From assembly GCF_034258515.1 (NCBI RefSeq), contig NZ_CP139438.1:1984001-2048000 (forward strand): a DNA stretch of 64,000 nucleotides. The letters run 5' to 3'. The DNA comes from Pseudarthrobacter oxydans. Lineage in GTDB: Bacteria; Actinomycetota; Actinomycetes; Actinomycetales; Micrococcaceae. The position numbers and the translations under genes were made by a program. Numbering within the stretch: position 1 is the stretch's first letter; every line of letters starts with the position of its first letter. The notes beneath the pieces were generated by a model. The model was not told the origin of the DNA. It ran no database searches and saw only the letters and a program-made list of their open reading frames with translations. Below, piece by piece: positions 6,884 to 59,592 of the stretch.

Positions 6884-7437
6884 TCAGTCTTCGGGCTTGA
6901 GGGTGGCGGCCGCGTCGAGGGCGGCGTCGACAACGATGAGGTAATTGTCGCGTCCGGCGGCGAGCGGAATGGAGTGTTCGCCGTATTTGTCGTAGGCGAG
7001 GTCTACGGCGTCGGCGGCGCTGGTGACGTTGAGTCGGCGCAGGAGCCGGGCGATGTCGAGGGTGTCTTTGTCGCGTTCGGCGGCTATTTTCATGGCAAGG
7101 AGCGTTTCGGTGTCTGCGGCCTGGATGGTGAGGCGTCGAGCTGTTCGAGGGCGACCCAGGTGGCGTTGTCTGGGACGAAGGCTGCGGCGTTGGTGTTGAG
7201 CCAGTCGGGGGAGAGGTCGTAGTCTGCTGCCATGTCGGCGACGACGGCGTGGATAGTGGTTGGGTCGGCGTAGCTGGCGTCGATGTCTGCGGTGGGGCGG
7301 TTGCCGATGCCTTGGAGGATGAGGGCGGCCCCGCCGACGAGTTTGACGTCGCCGTGGGCGCCGGCGGTCTGCAGGCGCCTGCCGAGTTCGTGGAGGAGTG
7401 CCCTGATTTGTGTGGCGGTGAGTTCTCCGCCGGTCAT
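6884..7437 (-). pseudogene. Nucleotidyltransferase toxin (AbiEii/DUF6036-like), -1 frameshift
   Basis: From the ATG at 7437 the product has the nucleotidyltransferase core VKLVGGAALILQGIGNRPTADID. Near 7131 one base is lost: the first frame ends soon after VALEQLDAS, while the next frame continues TIQAADTETLLAMKIAAERDKDTLDIARLL to the stop at 6884. Both halves together match the usual ~185-residue toxin. The ATG overlaps the stop of the Xre gene (ATGA). As read it would be a truncated, probably inactive toxin with an intact partner. Confidence 0.72.
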
Positions 7438-8054
7438 GCGGTGGCCAGGCTGCGTTCGCGGATGAAGACGTTCAGGTCGGCGAGTTCTTGGGGTGTTTCG
7501 GACATGGTGAGTTTCTTCATGGGTTCTCGGATTGTGCGGTAGGACTGGGCTGGCATCCATGCCTCGTCGAGGGGCTTGATTCGTCGCGTCCATGGTGGTG
7601 CGGCTTGGCCGAGTCGGTGTGCGGTGTAGTTGGTGATTCCGGCGAGGGCCGCTGACCAGTGCGGGTCTTTGAGGCGGGGGCTGCGCTGGAGGAGCGGCAT
7701 GCCGGCAGTGAGGGATGCGCTGGCATAATCGGCGAGCATTTTGATCGCGAACTCAAAGTCCCGTTCGGCGATAAGGCGCGTGAAGGTTGTCGCGTAGTCG
7801 CGCCGTGCCGGGTCGAAGTCTCTGCCGCGGGGGATGGGATCTGTGGCGGCCAAGGACAGGCCGAGGGCGGCCATGACGGCCAGGGTTTTACCGAGTTCGG
7901 CGCGGTCGTGGCCGGCTTCCAGATCGATGAGGAACTTCCGTGACACCCCGGCCATGTCGGCAAGGGTTCGCTGGGACAGCCCGCGGGCTGTGCGGTGGGC
8001 GCGGATGAAGGCGCCGGCTGCCGCCGGGGTCTCGATGGTGCTTTCCAGTGTCAT
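7434..8054 (-). CDS. Xre-family antitoxin-like regulator
   Basis: 206 residues. Helix-turn-helix at about 15-70 (FIRAHRTARGLSQRTLADMAGVSRKFLIDLEAG), then a helical C-terminal region ending MKKLTMSETPQELADLNVFIRERSLATA. It precedes and overlaps the nucleotidyltransferase gene, as in two-gene toxin-antitoxin operons. GTAGGAGGGG precedes the ATG, and a palindrome (8079-8096) upstream suggests autorepression. Confidence 0.78.
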   Translation of the reverse strand: MTLESTIETPAAAGAFIRAHRTARGLSQRTLADMAGVSRKFLIDLEAGHDRAELGKTLAVMAALGLSLAATDPIPRGRDFDPARRDYATTFTRLIAERDFEFAIKMLADYASASLTAGMPLLQRSPRLKDPHWSAALAGITNYTAHRLGQAAPPWTRRIKPLDEAWMPAQSYRTIREPMKKLTMSETPQELADLNVFIRERSLATA

Positions 8055-8096: not shown

Positions 8097-8273
8097 CTTG
8101 CATTTCCTGCTGCAGGGTTCGGCGGTTAGCTGACATTCCTTCGGTTTGTACCGCGGTGCCTCTCTGATGGTGCAGGCCCGCTGGAGCCTCGGACTCTTGT
8201 CAGCACAACGAAGAACAGCATCTCCAGATGACGCGCGGTGGGTGGCAGGAAGGCTTGAAGCGGAAAATTTGGG

Positions 8274-8660
8274 GGTGTGGACAATGTCCACACTTTGCTC
8301 CTCGGACTGGGTGGTATGGGGGTCGGACCGGGCCGGATTCCGCATGTTTCCGCGGGTTCCCAGTGTTCGCACGGGCTGGAATGCAGTTCGAGTCCCACCT
8401 CGGGCACAGCAGATCCCCTCGTCGGAGGGGCTTTTTGCTTTAACGTGCTGACGTGGCTTGTGGTGGTGTCCCCCTGAGGGCTGGTTCGCGGGCTTTTGGC
8501 CAAGCTGCCGCTTTGCCAATTCAGGTGTGTGGGGTGGCGGGTTCAGGTCCCTGGCTGGTGGGCCTTCCGCATGCCGGGGCTGGGTTATGTGGTTCCTCGT
8601 TCCGGTTCTGTCGGGGGTGGCCAACACCTATTCATGGGCCGGTGGAGCGGGGACGACATG
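8274..8660 (+). repeat. R1 repeat, copy 1 (right part missing)
   Basis: Begins with the palindrome GTGTGGACAATGTCCACAC (8275-8293). It then carries CGGATTCCGCATGTTT, a tRNA-like 3' end (8386-8407), a terminator hairpin (8415-8440) and a G/T-rich right part ending at GGACGACATG. It aligns by eye with 11700-12204 and 59080-59592 in the same order and direction. It does not encode a convincing protein. The reverse strand gives the familiar spurious peptide seen behind tRNA ends. Confidence 0.8.
8415..8440 (+). terminator. Intrinsic-terminator-like hairpin in R1 copy 1
   Basis: CCCCTC-GTCG-GAGGGG followed by CTTTTTGCTT. It directly follows a tRNA-like 3' end TTCGAGTCCCACCTCGGGCAC at 8387-8407. 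The other R1 copies keep the stem with compensating base changes. Confidence 0.6.
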
Positions 8661-9069: not shown

Positions 9070-9340
9070 TGCCGGCGGACCTGAGTTCACGGAGCTCTTC
9101 CAGCCGCTGCTGCCAGCGTGCCGCGTCGTCAGCCTTGCGCGTCGAGAACTTATCCCAGTCAGGAATGGACTCACGGGAGTCTCCGTAGGCGGGGAGAGGG
9201 CCCCGGCCGCAACCTCGCGGCGGCGCCTATATAGCCACGCGCCCAGCGCCCTCTCCCGTGGCGTCTTCCCGCCAGGGCTGTGGAGCCGCCCCTTGGCCTC
9301 GTGGAAAGCGATGACGTCGGCAAGGTTCCGCAGACCCGAC
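9070..9340 (-). pseudogene. Helicase-associated-domain protein remnant, frameshifted
   Basis: The minus strand reads LRNLADVIAFHEAKGRLHSPGG, RERALGAWLYRRRREVAAGALSP. After a frame change near 9186 it reads AYGDSRESIPDWDKFSTRKADDAARWQQRLEELREL. This pattern of W-rich helical repeats is the helicase-associated domain common in actinobacterial orphan proteins. There is no start, no stop in frame and no helicase part. Confidence 0.6.
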
Positions 9341-9499
9341 TTTGAGGGCCTCGTAACTGGGTCTACCTTCGCGGATCGGTGTTGGGCCAGCAGCCCGGCG
9401 TCTGCCCGTTTTGCGATGGAGCTTCTTCCAGCGCGGCAATCCTGGCCGCAAAAAGGCCCCGGTGGTACATCTCCACCCATTCAGCCCGCGGTGCTGGCT

Positions 9500-9694
9500 G
9501 CCGTGCGGGTCTCCCTGGCGCCTGGAGTCTCCTGCAGGAGGGGCGGCACGGCGCATTTCGGCGATGCGCAGCCGCAGGAACGTGATGACCAGGATCAGGA
9601 CGTAGATGGCCAGGCCCGTCAGCACCGCCATGAACACGAAGTAGAGGCCACCATGAAGTCGAATCGCGGAGGGTAGTTCAAGGGTCCCCCAATG
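9500..9694 (-). pseudogene. Single-pass membrane protein fragment
   Basis: The minus strand encodes one clear transmembrane helix (LYFVFMAVLTGLAIYVLILV) followed by LRLRIAEMRRAAPP. It is joined in frame to the penicillin-binding-protein remnant on one side and to nonsense on the other, so it is most likely debris. Family not recognised. Confidence 0.3.
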
Positions 9695-9751
9695 GTTGCG
9701 TCCTACGAGCCTAGCGCGGCTCTCCGTACTCTTGGGGCAGCGCGACCGGGG

Positions 9752-10006
9752 GAGTGGTGAACGACGGACGTTGACCACGACGACATACTGGGGATCGTCC
9801 ACTGGGGCTATGCCCACGAGCGAGGCGGTGTACCCGTCCAACACGATGCCATCGTCGGCGACGGCTTTCGCGGTCCCGGTCTTCCTGCCGACCCGGTAGC
9901 CGGGGACCTCGATGTCTTTGGTTCCGCCGGCGGTGACGACGCTTTCCAAAATATCCACGTGCCTGTCGTGCTTGGTGTCGCTGACGGCCCGGGCCTCCGG
10001 TTGCAC
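9752..10006 (-). pseudogene. Penicillin-binding protein transpeptidase domain fragment
   Basis: The minus strand reads RHVDILESVVTAGGTKDIEVPGYRVGRKTGTAKAV and then DGYTASLVGIAPVDDPQYVVVV. The KTGT box and the preceding VPGYRV segment are the third active-site motif of class B transpeptidases (FtsI/PBP2 type). The SxxK and SxN motifs are absent. It is a C-terminal scrap, not a working gene. Confidence 0.75.
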
Positions 10007-10169
10007 TGGATGCTTGCGTCATCGGGGTCGGTACAGGACTTGTCGCACTTGACTTGCACATCATTTTTAAAGCCCCTAGGTTGTCCCGGACAGGGTTCCT
10101 AACAGACTTGTGGGCCCTGACGCCTGCTCAGCAGGGCGGGTGATATCTAGTTATTTGGGGGTTTCTAGA

Positions 10170-10823
10170 GTGGTTTATTTATCTACGTCTTGGTCGAGAG
10201 TTTCTTGGATATTAACGACCATTGTTGCGGTAATTGGGCTCGTTTTTGTTTCGGTGGCGCCCGCTGACGCTTCGGGGAGTAAAACGATAAGCGCGGGTGG
10301 ATCTGGAGTTGTGTTGCACGAGCCCACGGCAGCTTAAAAGGCAGAGGCCATGCGGCGTTTGGATCAGGCGCAAAAAGCAGACCCCGAGGGCTTCGACGAG
10401 CGGCTCCGCCTGATCAAGAATTCCAAGGAGCTTATGACTTACCTCTCCTCGGATAGTCGTTTCGACGCCGGACTCCAACAGAAGTTCCTTGCTGCTTCCA
10501 TGCCTACTGAAGTTCTTCAGTCGCTGGTTTCATTGACAGAAACAGGGTACTTAACTCTTGAGGTAAAAGACGGTCCTAACAACACCAAGGTGGCCAAGTT
10601 CAGCAAGGCTGAGCCGACCCTGGTAGGCGGCGGTAAGGGAAGCATGGCCATGAAGCCCATGTTCCCACAGTGTCCCTCGGCCTGGGCCGCTATGTGGGCT
10701 TGGTGGGGAACAAATGCAGCTTTCTGTGGCGCCATGGGCTTCTTCGGGCCGGGTGCCGCTATCGCCTGCTCCGGCTTCATGATGCTTGCCGGCTCCGCTA
10801 TCGATTTCAACAAAGGGTGCTAA
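10170..10823 (+). pseudogene. Halocin-C8-like bacteriocin precursor candidate, interrupted by an in-frame TAA
   Basis: From GTG at 10170 a signal peptide (hydrophobic WILTTIVAVIGLVFVSV, cleavage after ADA) leads to a TAA at 10335-10337. The same frame continues from 10350 for 157 residues. That part has a charged helical pro-region and a hydrophobic, Trp/Gly/Ala-rich tail of about 50 residues with four cysteines (108, 126, 140, 157 of the second part). A secreted leader, propeptide and Cys/Gly-rich hydrophobic tail resemble halocin-C8-type bacteriocins. A single GAA to TAA change would explain the break. Base composition is lower in GC than the flanks. Confidence 0.5.
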
Positions 10824-11209
10824 TGACGACTACTTCTAAATCAACCGAGCGCAACTACTGGCTGGCGTTGTCGGCCCTGTTCGGAGTGACGGTTAGTGTT
10901 GTGGCCATGACGGACCCGCCATGGTCCGTGGCGATGGTCCTAGCCTTCGTTCTGTTCGTGGTTCTGCAAAGCATCCACTACAGACAAATCGGTCACCACG
11001 TACAAGGGAAACTTGCTACCGCCAACCCAGGGGTTGGCATCCTCGGGGCTGTCTTCGGAGGCGCAGCAGTTCTCATCCATGGCAGCCCGATAGCTCTATG
11101 GGCAGGGCCCGTCCTCGGCCTCGTGACCTTTGTCGGTCTGTTCCTGTTCCTCCAGCGGTTTGGTCGATTCCACCACAGTCACAACACGAACTCCATCTGG
11201 ACCAATTAG
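10823..11209 (+). CDS. Small four-helix membrane protein, possible immunity protein
   Basis: 128 residues with about four hydrophobic helices (YWLALSALFGVTVSVVAM, VAMVLAFVLFVVLQ, GVGILGAVFGGAAVLI, LVTFVGLFLFLQ) and a His-rich C-terminus. The ATG at 10823 overlaps the stop of the preceding candidate bacteriocin gene (TAATG), so the two are translationally coupled. Membrane proteins in this position often protect the producer. The family is not recognised and the role is inferred from context only. Confidence 0.6.
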   Translation: MTTTSKSTERNYWLALSALFGVTVSVVAMTDPPWSVAMVLAFVLFVVLQSIHYRQIGHHVQGKLATANPGVGILGAVFGGAAVLIHGSPIALWAGPVLGLVTFVGLFLFLQRFGRFHHSHNTNSIWTN

Positions 11210-11215
11210 CCTGTG

Positions 11216-11261
11216 TTGAGGGCCGTACGAGCGGGCATTATCAGCCCCGTACGGCCCTCAA
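11216..11261. terminator. Strong hairpin after the bacteriocin-like pair
   Basis: TTGAGGGCCGTACG (11216-11229) and CGTACGGCCCTCAA (11248-11261) form a perfect 14-bp stem just after the stop codon at 11209. There is only a short U tract (CGTTTCC) downstream. It can terminate in either direction. Confidence 0.7.
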
Positions 11262-11699
11262 CTCGTTTCCCGTTGAAGTGGCAGTTCATTCCTATCACCG
11301 TGAAACCTGCTGGTTAAAGAAAGAGAGCCTTCCAAGACTGAGCAGCAGCGGCTCGTGGACGTACGCCACAGATGCCCAGTACAGGGTGGCCGGGTCCACC
11401 AACGTCTGGACCCGCAAAGCACCCAGGCCAGCGTCTACTGCTGAGTGTTGCCCTGAAATGTCCGCTTCACTCGGACGGGCCTGTCGATATGGAAAGGAGC
11501 CGGAGCTGCCCCGGCCGTCACCAACGCTGCATCGCCCCAGTGGAACGGTTCCCGGATCTGCCTGGATTCGGTCACACCGAGGTCCGGACGGGTTCGTCTA
11601 GCCGGGTCAACGGCAACGTCTATTAACAACTGGTGAAGTCGGGTGGCCTTGGAGAGTAATTCAAAGGTGGCGTTCCTAAGCACCAGCTCGGGGGAAAAG
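11262..11699. other. Stretch without a supported gene
   Basis: Only short, unlike frames are open here. No conserved motif, ribosome site or RNA gene was recognised between the hairpin and the second R1 copy. Confidence 0.5.
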
Positions 11700-12204
11700 G
11701 AGTGTGGACAATGTGCACACTCCTGGCCTCGGAGTAGCCCGTAAAGCCGCCGGACTGCTTCGGATTCCGCATGTCTTCGCGGGTTCCCAGTGTTTTCAAG
11801 GGTGGGAATGTAGTTCGAGTCCCACCTCGGGCACGACATATCGCCTCGTCAGAGGCGATCTTGCTTTGACGTGTGTACAAAGCTTGATTCTCGTCGCTCT
11901 GACGGGTTGGTTCGCGGGCTGTGGCCTGGCTGCCGCTGAGCCTATTTAGGTGTGTGGGTGGCGGGTTCAAGGCCCTTGCTGGTGGGCCTTCCGCCTGCTG
12001 TGGCTGCGGTTATGCGGTACCTCGTGTTGGTTGTCTCGGGTTGGCCGGGGGTGGCCTACACCTGTTCATGGACCGGGGGAGCGGGCACAACATGACTTCG
12101 CCGATTGCGGTGCGAAACTTCCTTGGACGGCCCCGCTTTTTGGGCGCGGGAACTGGGGAACCGCTGTTTTGTCCTGCCAAAGGAGGTGTGGACAGTGTCA
12201 ACAC
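11700..12204 (+). repeat. R1 repeat, copy 2 (full-length reference copy)
   Basis: Bounded left by GTGTGGACAATGTGCACAC (11702-11720) and right by GTGTGGACAGTGTCAACAC (12186-12204). Inside are CGGATTCCGCATGTCTT, GCGGGTTCCCAGTGTT, a tRNA-like T-arm/acceptor end (11813-11834) and a hairpin (11841-11858). A right half rich in GGTGGGCCTTCCGC and ACACCTGTTCATGG motifs follows, then GTCCTGCCAAAGG before the right palindrome. About 505 bp. Same orientation as copies 1 and 3. Confidence 0.8.
11841..11870 (+). terminator. Terminator-like hairpin in R1 copy 2
   Basis: TCGCCTC-GTCA-GAGGCGA followed by TCTTGCTTTG. Compared with copy 1 (CCCCTC/GAGGGG) the second stem pair has changed from C-G to G-C on both sides, which keeps the pairing. 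Confidence 0.6.
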
Positions 12205-59079: not shown

Positions 59080-59592
59080 GGAAAAGGGGAGTAGCCAATG
59101 TCCATACTGTTCGTCTTGGACGGCCTTGTGTAGCAGTCACAGTGCTCCGGATTCCGCATGTTTCGCGGGTTCCCAGTGTTGGCACGGCCAGGACGACAGT
59201 TTCGAGTCCTACCTCGCGCACAATGTTTTCCCTCGTCAGAGGCGATTTTGCTTTGAGGTGTGCAGAGCTTGGGGTGGCGTCCCTCTGACGCCAGGGCGCG
59301 GGCTCGGGCCTGGCCGCCGCAGCGGCCTATTGAGGTGTGTGAGATGGCGGGTTCAAGACCCTGGCTTGTGGGCCTTCCGCCTGCTGTGGCTGGCGTTCCG
59401 CGGTTCCTCGTTTTGGTTCTGTCGGGTTGGGCGGGGGTGGCCAACACCTGTTCAGGGTCCGGGGCTGCTGACTCCATATGACGTCGCCGATGTTGGCGCG
59501 AAAGTTCCTCGGAAAGCTCTTTCCTCTAAGGCACGGGAGCTTCGGGGTGCGCCGTTTGTCCTGCCAAAGGGGGTGCGGACAGTCTGAAGTCG
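59080..59592 (+). repeat. R1 repeat, copy 3
   Basis: Left end degenerate (AATGTCCATAC at 59098-59108). Core CGGATTCCGCATGTTTCGCGG (59150 on), tRNA-like end TTTCGAGTCCTACC, hairpin CCTC-GTCA-GAGG with GATTTTGCTTTG (59231-59254), right half with GGTGGCCAACACCTGTTCA, GTCCTGCCAAAGG and a degenerate right palindrome GGTGCGGACAGTC (59572-59584). About 510 bp. Confidence 0.78.

Follow-up and report, generated by a model that had tools for sequence, protein, structure and literature searches.

Two small overlapping genes on the plus strand of a Pseudarthrobacter oxydans chromosome raise the question of whether this strain secretes a bacteriocin and protects itself with a neighboring membrane protein. 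The pair, here called gene A and gene B, lies in a 64,000-nt stretch of DNA (the window; contig NZ_CP139438.1, positions 1,984,001 to 2,048,000), and an earlier note had described it as a complete bacteriocin operon, possibly halocin-C8-like. We conclude that the locus is probably a bacteriocin-like two-gene set of which this strain has lost the secreted peptide and kept the presumed immunity gene.

Gene A begins with a leader piece at 10170..10334 (+), in which translation from a GTG start gives a long hydrophobic stretch with an A-x-A-like end and then the onset of a pro-region; an in-frame GTG at 10140 is a possible alternative start. The Sec leader proposed in the earlier note is borne out in this form, as a putative signal. 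The body follows in the same frame as a 157-aa ORF at 10350..10823 (+), made up of a charged pro-region (codons 1-104) and a hydrophobic C-terminal domain at 10662..10820 (+), the presumed mature peptide, with 53 residues and four cysteines, one of them the last residue (alignment A2); both parts had been recognized in the earlier note. Leader and body are split by an in-frame TAA at 10335..10337 (+), so that the 157-aa ORF has no leader and the operon cannot be called complete in this strain. A homology search with the related protein P0004 likewise reported one TAA within its match at the window locus. The leader piece can be aligned with the leaders of two natural full-length homologues, P0002 and P0004, and P0002 (227 aa, encoded on a contig of 2.3 kb) is 99.1% identical to the window over residues 3-227 and has no break. 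Gene A is thus broken in the window copy, and the TAA itself could be a sequencing fault. No second copy of gene A was found in the strain's own genome, a single contig of 4.44 Mb, in searches with the window protein and with a protein of the second peptide class described below. GC content across 10170-11209 is 0.558 vs 0.630 for the whole window, in agreement with the lower GC noted earlier; among stretches of 1040 nt, 0.25% have a lower value, the GC minimum being at about 10000.

Gene B (10823..11209, +) encodes a small membrane protein of 128 aa, presumed to confer immunity. Its start codon and the stop codon of gene A share the TAATG at 10821-10825 that had been proposed to couple the two genes. 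The four-helix membrane protein of the earlier note holds to the extent that four helices are modelled, at low confidence (mean pLDDT 54.9). Downstream, a 48-nt RNA hairpin at 11215..11262 (+) is strong (-39.7 kcal/mol, z -5.14) and is a possible terminator, but it has no T run, so that of the "strong terminator" only the hairpin stands; a terminator scan of the locus found no stem with a T run after it, and a promoter scan of the locus found no site. Homology searches with gene B recovered 36 proteins, which together with the 26 found for gene A (below) shows that the pair is no chance find, and alignment A3 holds 30 of the 37 gene B proteins (P0001 and the 36 matches). Relatives of both genes carry at most the database names hypothetical protein, putative permease or heme A synthase. 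The Pfam family Cpta_toxin (PF07254), which bears a toxin label, matches 21 of the 30 aligned gene B relatives weakly (best E 0.0013) and is not among the families listed for the window's own gene B protein. Taken alone, gene B may represent a membrane family that serves some other purpose.

The surroundings of the pair have features of their own. A repeat of ~400 nt, with copies 77-87% alike at window positions 8272-8660, 11690-12130 and 59086-59513, flanks the locus on both sides. It has eight matches in the strain's own genome, all on the plus strand and within 1908457-2043513, and the wider region has 17 matches, all on one strand, in the same-species genome G064 (G064:C1 30453-340587). 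The gene pair sits between two repeat copies and is missing in G064. On the minus strand, the ORFs in window 7090-8054 overlap and encode a helix-turn-helix domain and a nucleotidyltransferase-like domain (DUF6036), an arrangement that would suit a toxin-antitoxin pair. Also on the minus strand, at 9227-10006 upstream of the pair, is a penicillin-binding-protein transpeptidase fragment that covers PF00905 profile positions 200-281 of 299 and is likely a pseudogene piece.

A homology search with gene A found 26 homologous proteins, and a profile built from 14 sequences found 48, with a weakest E of 1.1e-22 among the 7996 candidates with the most shared words that were scored. Where named, the profile matches are hypothetical proteins of Arthrobacter, Pseudarthrobacter, Paenarthrobacter, Sinomonas or Micrococcaceae, and all 13 places found in a scan of genome contigs belong to Arthrobacter, Paenarthrobacter or Sinomonas. 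Of 198 genomes of the genus, 23 carry gene A, which makes 24 places in all; G064, from the same species, does not have it. In a search of 396 genomes of the phylum, the strain's own genome was matched and, beyond it, there was a single distant match, a weak one. Neither Pfam nor NCBIfam supplied a curated family, and no solved relative or fold match that supports a function was found for the gene A or gene B proteins; as judged from these profile searches, the family is new to the curated libraries searched. For P0005, a relative of full length, the structure model (pLDDT 63.4, pTM 0.57) has a well-predicted helical pro-domain at residues 54-125, and residues 169-210, across the cysteine region, are modelled with low confidence as a helical hairpin. 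Fold searches with models of a gene A relative and of gene B gave no match.

Conservation within gene A is concentrated at its end. Of the 50 gene A proteins recovered, alignment A2 comprises 40, ten short or partial ones being left out, and the four C-terminal cysteines are kept in 40/40, 39/40, 40/40 and 40/40 of its members, P0009 being the sole one that lacks the second. In all 40 the C-terminal end is 51-54 residues long, with 77-87% A, I, L, M, F, W, V, C, G, Y or P and a net charge of -2 to +1 that is zero in 29. Two classes can be told apart by this end: class 1 (28/40) ends in an FNRGC-like motif and class 2 (12/40) in an INWNDAC-like one, with 30% identity between them in the C-terminus. 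Mean identity in class 1 is 0.39 for the leader, 0.50 for the pro-region, 0.37 for the linker and 0.79 for the C-terminus. The ratio pN/pS, calculated for 11 of the 24 places from the genus search (55 pairs), is 0.282 for the pro-region, 0.089 for the C-terminus and 0.311 for gene B, these values being rough because pS is near saturation. With the lowest pN/pS and the highest identity, the C-terminus is on these measures the most strongly constrained part of gene A, as expected of a mature peptide. In alignments A1 and A2 and by this contrast in selection, the relatives have the build of a leader, a pro-region and a conserved C-terminal peptide, a build that is broken in the window copy.

The earlier note had suggested looking for the same two-gene order in other genomes, and a gene B-type ORF lies directly 3' of gene A at all 23 class-1 places of the 198 genomes. 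In four of the 22 class-1 genomes (G005, G112, G170 and G196) this ORF is too diverged for the search with P0001 and was assigned by its size, place and likeness to its neighbors. Beyond the pair the surroundings differ: in 12 regions compared, the commonest shared neighbor occurs in five. Genome G122 has two different class-1 sets (L002 and L024), ~4 Mb apart on contig numbering, both with gene B. A search with a class-2 protein matched 10 class-1 places (E 3.7e-4 to 4.4e-7). At the two intact class-2 places, in G012 and G038, the downstream gene is a different one: it starts within 15-20 nt of the peptide gene and encodes a small membrane protein (76-77 aa) that has one or more hydrophobic helices (ORFs L086:8272-8502 and L104:6279-6512, both on the minus strand). 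These two partners are 54% identical to each other, and a Pfam scan of the class-2 partner proteins found no family match. A different partner for a different peptide class is what would be expected of cognate immunity. Class-2 partners occur in nine of the 198 genomes, seven of which have no class-2 peptide pattern upstream; at the third class-2 place, in G079, the peptide gene is broken and no partner stands beside it, a partner-like gene being on another contig.

The peptide gene is often lost while its partner is kept. Gene A is broken at seven of the 23 class-1 places, yet none of the 23, these seven included, has lost the gene B frame. Besides the in-frame stop in the window, there are frame shifts between leader and body in L010, L014 and L019 (the last with an additional TGA), a lost front part in L013 and L023 (again with an additional TGA in the latter), and an internal loss in L021. 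Some of these breaks, in draft genomes, could be sequencing faults. Gene B is also found where gene A is not: it occurs in 40 of the 198 genomes, of which 21 have no detected gene A, the gene B match being partial only in seven of these. At all 17 gene-B-only places inspected, the C-terminal peptide motif was absent within 1.5 kb; they represent 16 of the 21 genomes, plus a second copy in G112, and the genomes outside this inspection are G006, G029, G048, G164 and G173. The presumed immunity gene can thus persist where no intact peptide gene is detected.

A small membrane gene behind ABC-2 transporter genes is a known kind of peptide-resistance setting. Relatives of gene B lie directly behind an ABC-2 permease at at least four places (L058, L059, L060 and L113), and likewise in L111, a larger region from the L058 genome. 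Both L111:4471-7038 and L113:4428-7033 (+) show the gene B relative behind an ABC ATPase and an ABC-2 permease, with Pfam matches to ABC_tran and ABC2_membrane_3 in L111. This arrangement is possibly a peptide-resistance operon.

Two readings accept the pair as a unit and give it another purpose. The pair could have nothing to do with competition: the gene A protein would have a structural or developmental role, either secreted or inserted into the membrane, and gene B would supply its partner in the membrane; the hydrophobic end of gene A could form a membrane hairpin, and a strongly conserved C-terminus would suit such a role. Set against this are the patchy occurrence of gene A, down to its absence from G064, its changing surroundings, its frequent loss without gene B, and the fact that the two peptide classes have partners of different kinds, and we consider this reading unlikely. 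Alternatively, gene B would be a maturation or export factor and not an immunity protein, with a peptide that may still be antibacterial. The constant coupling of the two genes, the overlap of the gene B start with gene A and the predicted membrane location of gene B agree with this, but the gene A precursor has its own leader, and an export helper would be useless at the seven broken places and in the 21 genomes where gene B occurs without a detected gene A. An export factor is accordingly quite improbable.

A third reading denies the break: translation would start at 10350 and yield an intracellular 157-aa product, such as a toxin with gene B as its antitoxin. The frame is open and starts with ATG, and the databases hold three proteins of 157 aa (P0003, P0007 and P0012). 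At L006, the place that matches the contig of P0007, the full-length frame is open, so short entries like P0007 can be annotation choices; moreover, the leader before the stop can still be aligned with intact relatives, and a hydrophobic tail with cysteines fits a peptide that is exported. We regard an intracellular product as very improbable.

The label of the earlier note, halocin C8, fared worse than its general idea. The corresponding model, TIGR04449 (halocin_C8_dom), had no match in the own genome and none in the 396 phylum genomes, with a positive control in Haloferax volcanii. It was not listed for the window pieces, for 14 family members (E<=5) or for 40 (E<=10), with the proviso that HMMER filters hide very weak matches, which makes a remote link to halocin C8 possible. 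Halocin C8 has ten cysteines. It resembles gene A in its layout, an exported precursor with a large N-terminal part and a hydrophobic, cysteine-bearing C-terminal peptide, but differs in that the gene A tail has four cysteines and not ten. According to the accessible text of PMC11509114 its precursor has 283 aa and its mature form 76 aa, and according to that of PMC12893001 halocins H4 and C8 release C-terminal fragments. The title of Sun 2005, as cited in these two papers, locates immunity to halocin C8 within its own precursor, whereas a separate membrane gene is present here at 23/23 class-1 places; a member of that family would carry immunity in the N-terminal part (HalI) of the precursor. 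Given the absence of a TIGR04449 match in genome, phylum and members and this separate gene, membership of gene A in the halocin C8 family was rejected as having next to no chance of being right.

Other known systems also resemble the preferred reading. In Bacillus subtilis, SDP is a hydrophobic exported peptide cut from the ~200-aa precursor SdpC, and SdpI is its membrane immunity protein, as would be the case for genes A and B. The SdpA model PF17418 had no match in the own genome (the B. subtilis control was positive), and Pfam and NCBIfam scans of gene A family members gave no match to SdpC-type models. PAMP of propionibacteria is released from the C-terminal end of its precursor. The accessible part of PMC5756557 describes both PAMP and propionicin F, from these actinobacteria, as bacteriocins proteolytically released from larger precursors, the latter cut from a propeptide and accompanied by a separate membrane immunity protein, PcfI, much as proposed here. 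No sequence family link to gene A was found for either, and propionicin F differs in being cut at both ends and in having radical-SAM and ABC-transporter partners, none of which stands beside the gene A/B pair. A circular bacteriocin of the AS-48 type is reported for an Arthrobacter isolate in the accessible text of PMC10456417. As far as that source goes, such bacteriocins share with the gene A peptide a hydrophobic, helical nature and a producer in Arthrobacter, but their clusters run to some ten genes, one of them for a DUF95 protein, in contrast to the set of two found here, with its leader of Sec type and its conserved cysteines.

The preferred reading, a bacteriocin-like set, can be put as follows. 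In relatives, the gene A precursor would be exported through its Sec-type leader, and a protease outside the cell or at the membrane would remove the pro-region and the variable linker. The released peptide would have 51-54 residues, be hydrophobic and near-neutral and carry four cysteines, presumably in two disulfides, and it may insert as a helical hairpin into the membranes of competing relatives. The small membrane protein of gene B would protect the producer, as its place behind gene A, its retention and its occurrence without the peptide suggest. In this strain the stop separates the leader from the body, so no peptide should be secreted, and the intact gene B would still give resistance to the peptide of relatives. 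The general idea of the earlier note, that a secreted peptide of bacteriocin type is coupled to a membrane protein of immunity type, gains comparative support from the gene order, the C-terminal constraint, the broken places with gene B kept and gene B without the peptide. The tail was not placed in an unrelated membrane family, and homologues did not lack the membrane protein.

A wider interpretation, to which we give somewhat less than an even chance, is that this is an undescribed, widespread competition system of Micrococcaceae, with two classes of four-cysteine membrane-active peptides, each served by a small membrane immunity protein that is unrelated to the other's; the peptide would be lost repeatedly and immunity kept for resistance, in some lineages behind an ABC transporter. 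The message of the window copy is more modest: its peptide gene is dead, and the presumed immunity gene next to it is still live. If the bacteriocin reading is right, common soil actinobacteria would have a bacteriocin-like family that is missing from Pfam and NCBIfam, and a single genus would offer, ready from nature, producers, strains with a broken peptide gene and strains with immunity alone, in which it could be tested how frequently a strain stays resistant to a rival's peptide after losing the means to produce it.
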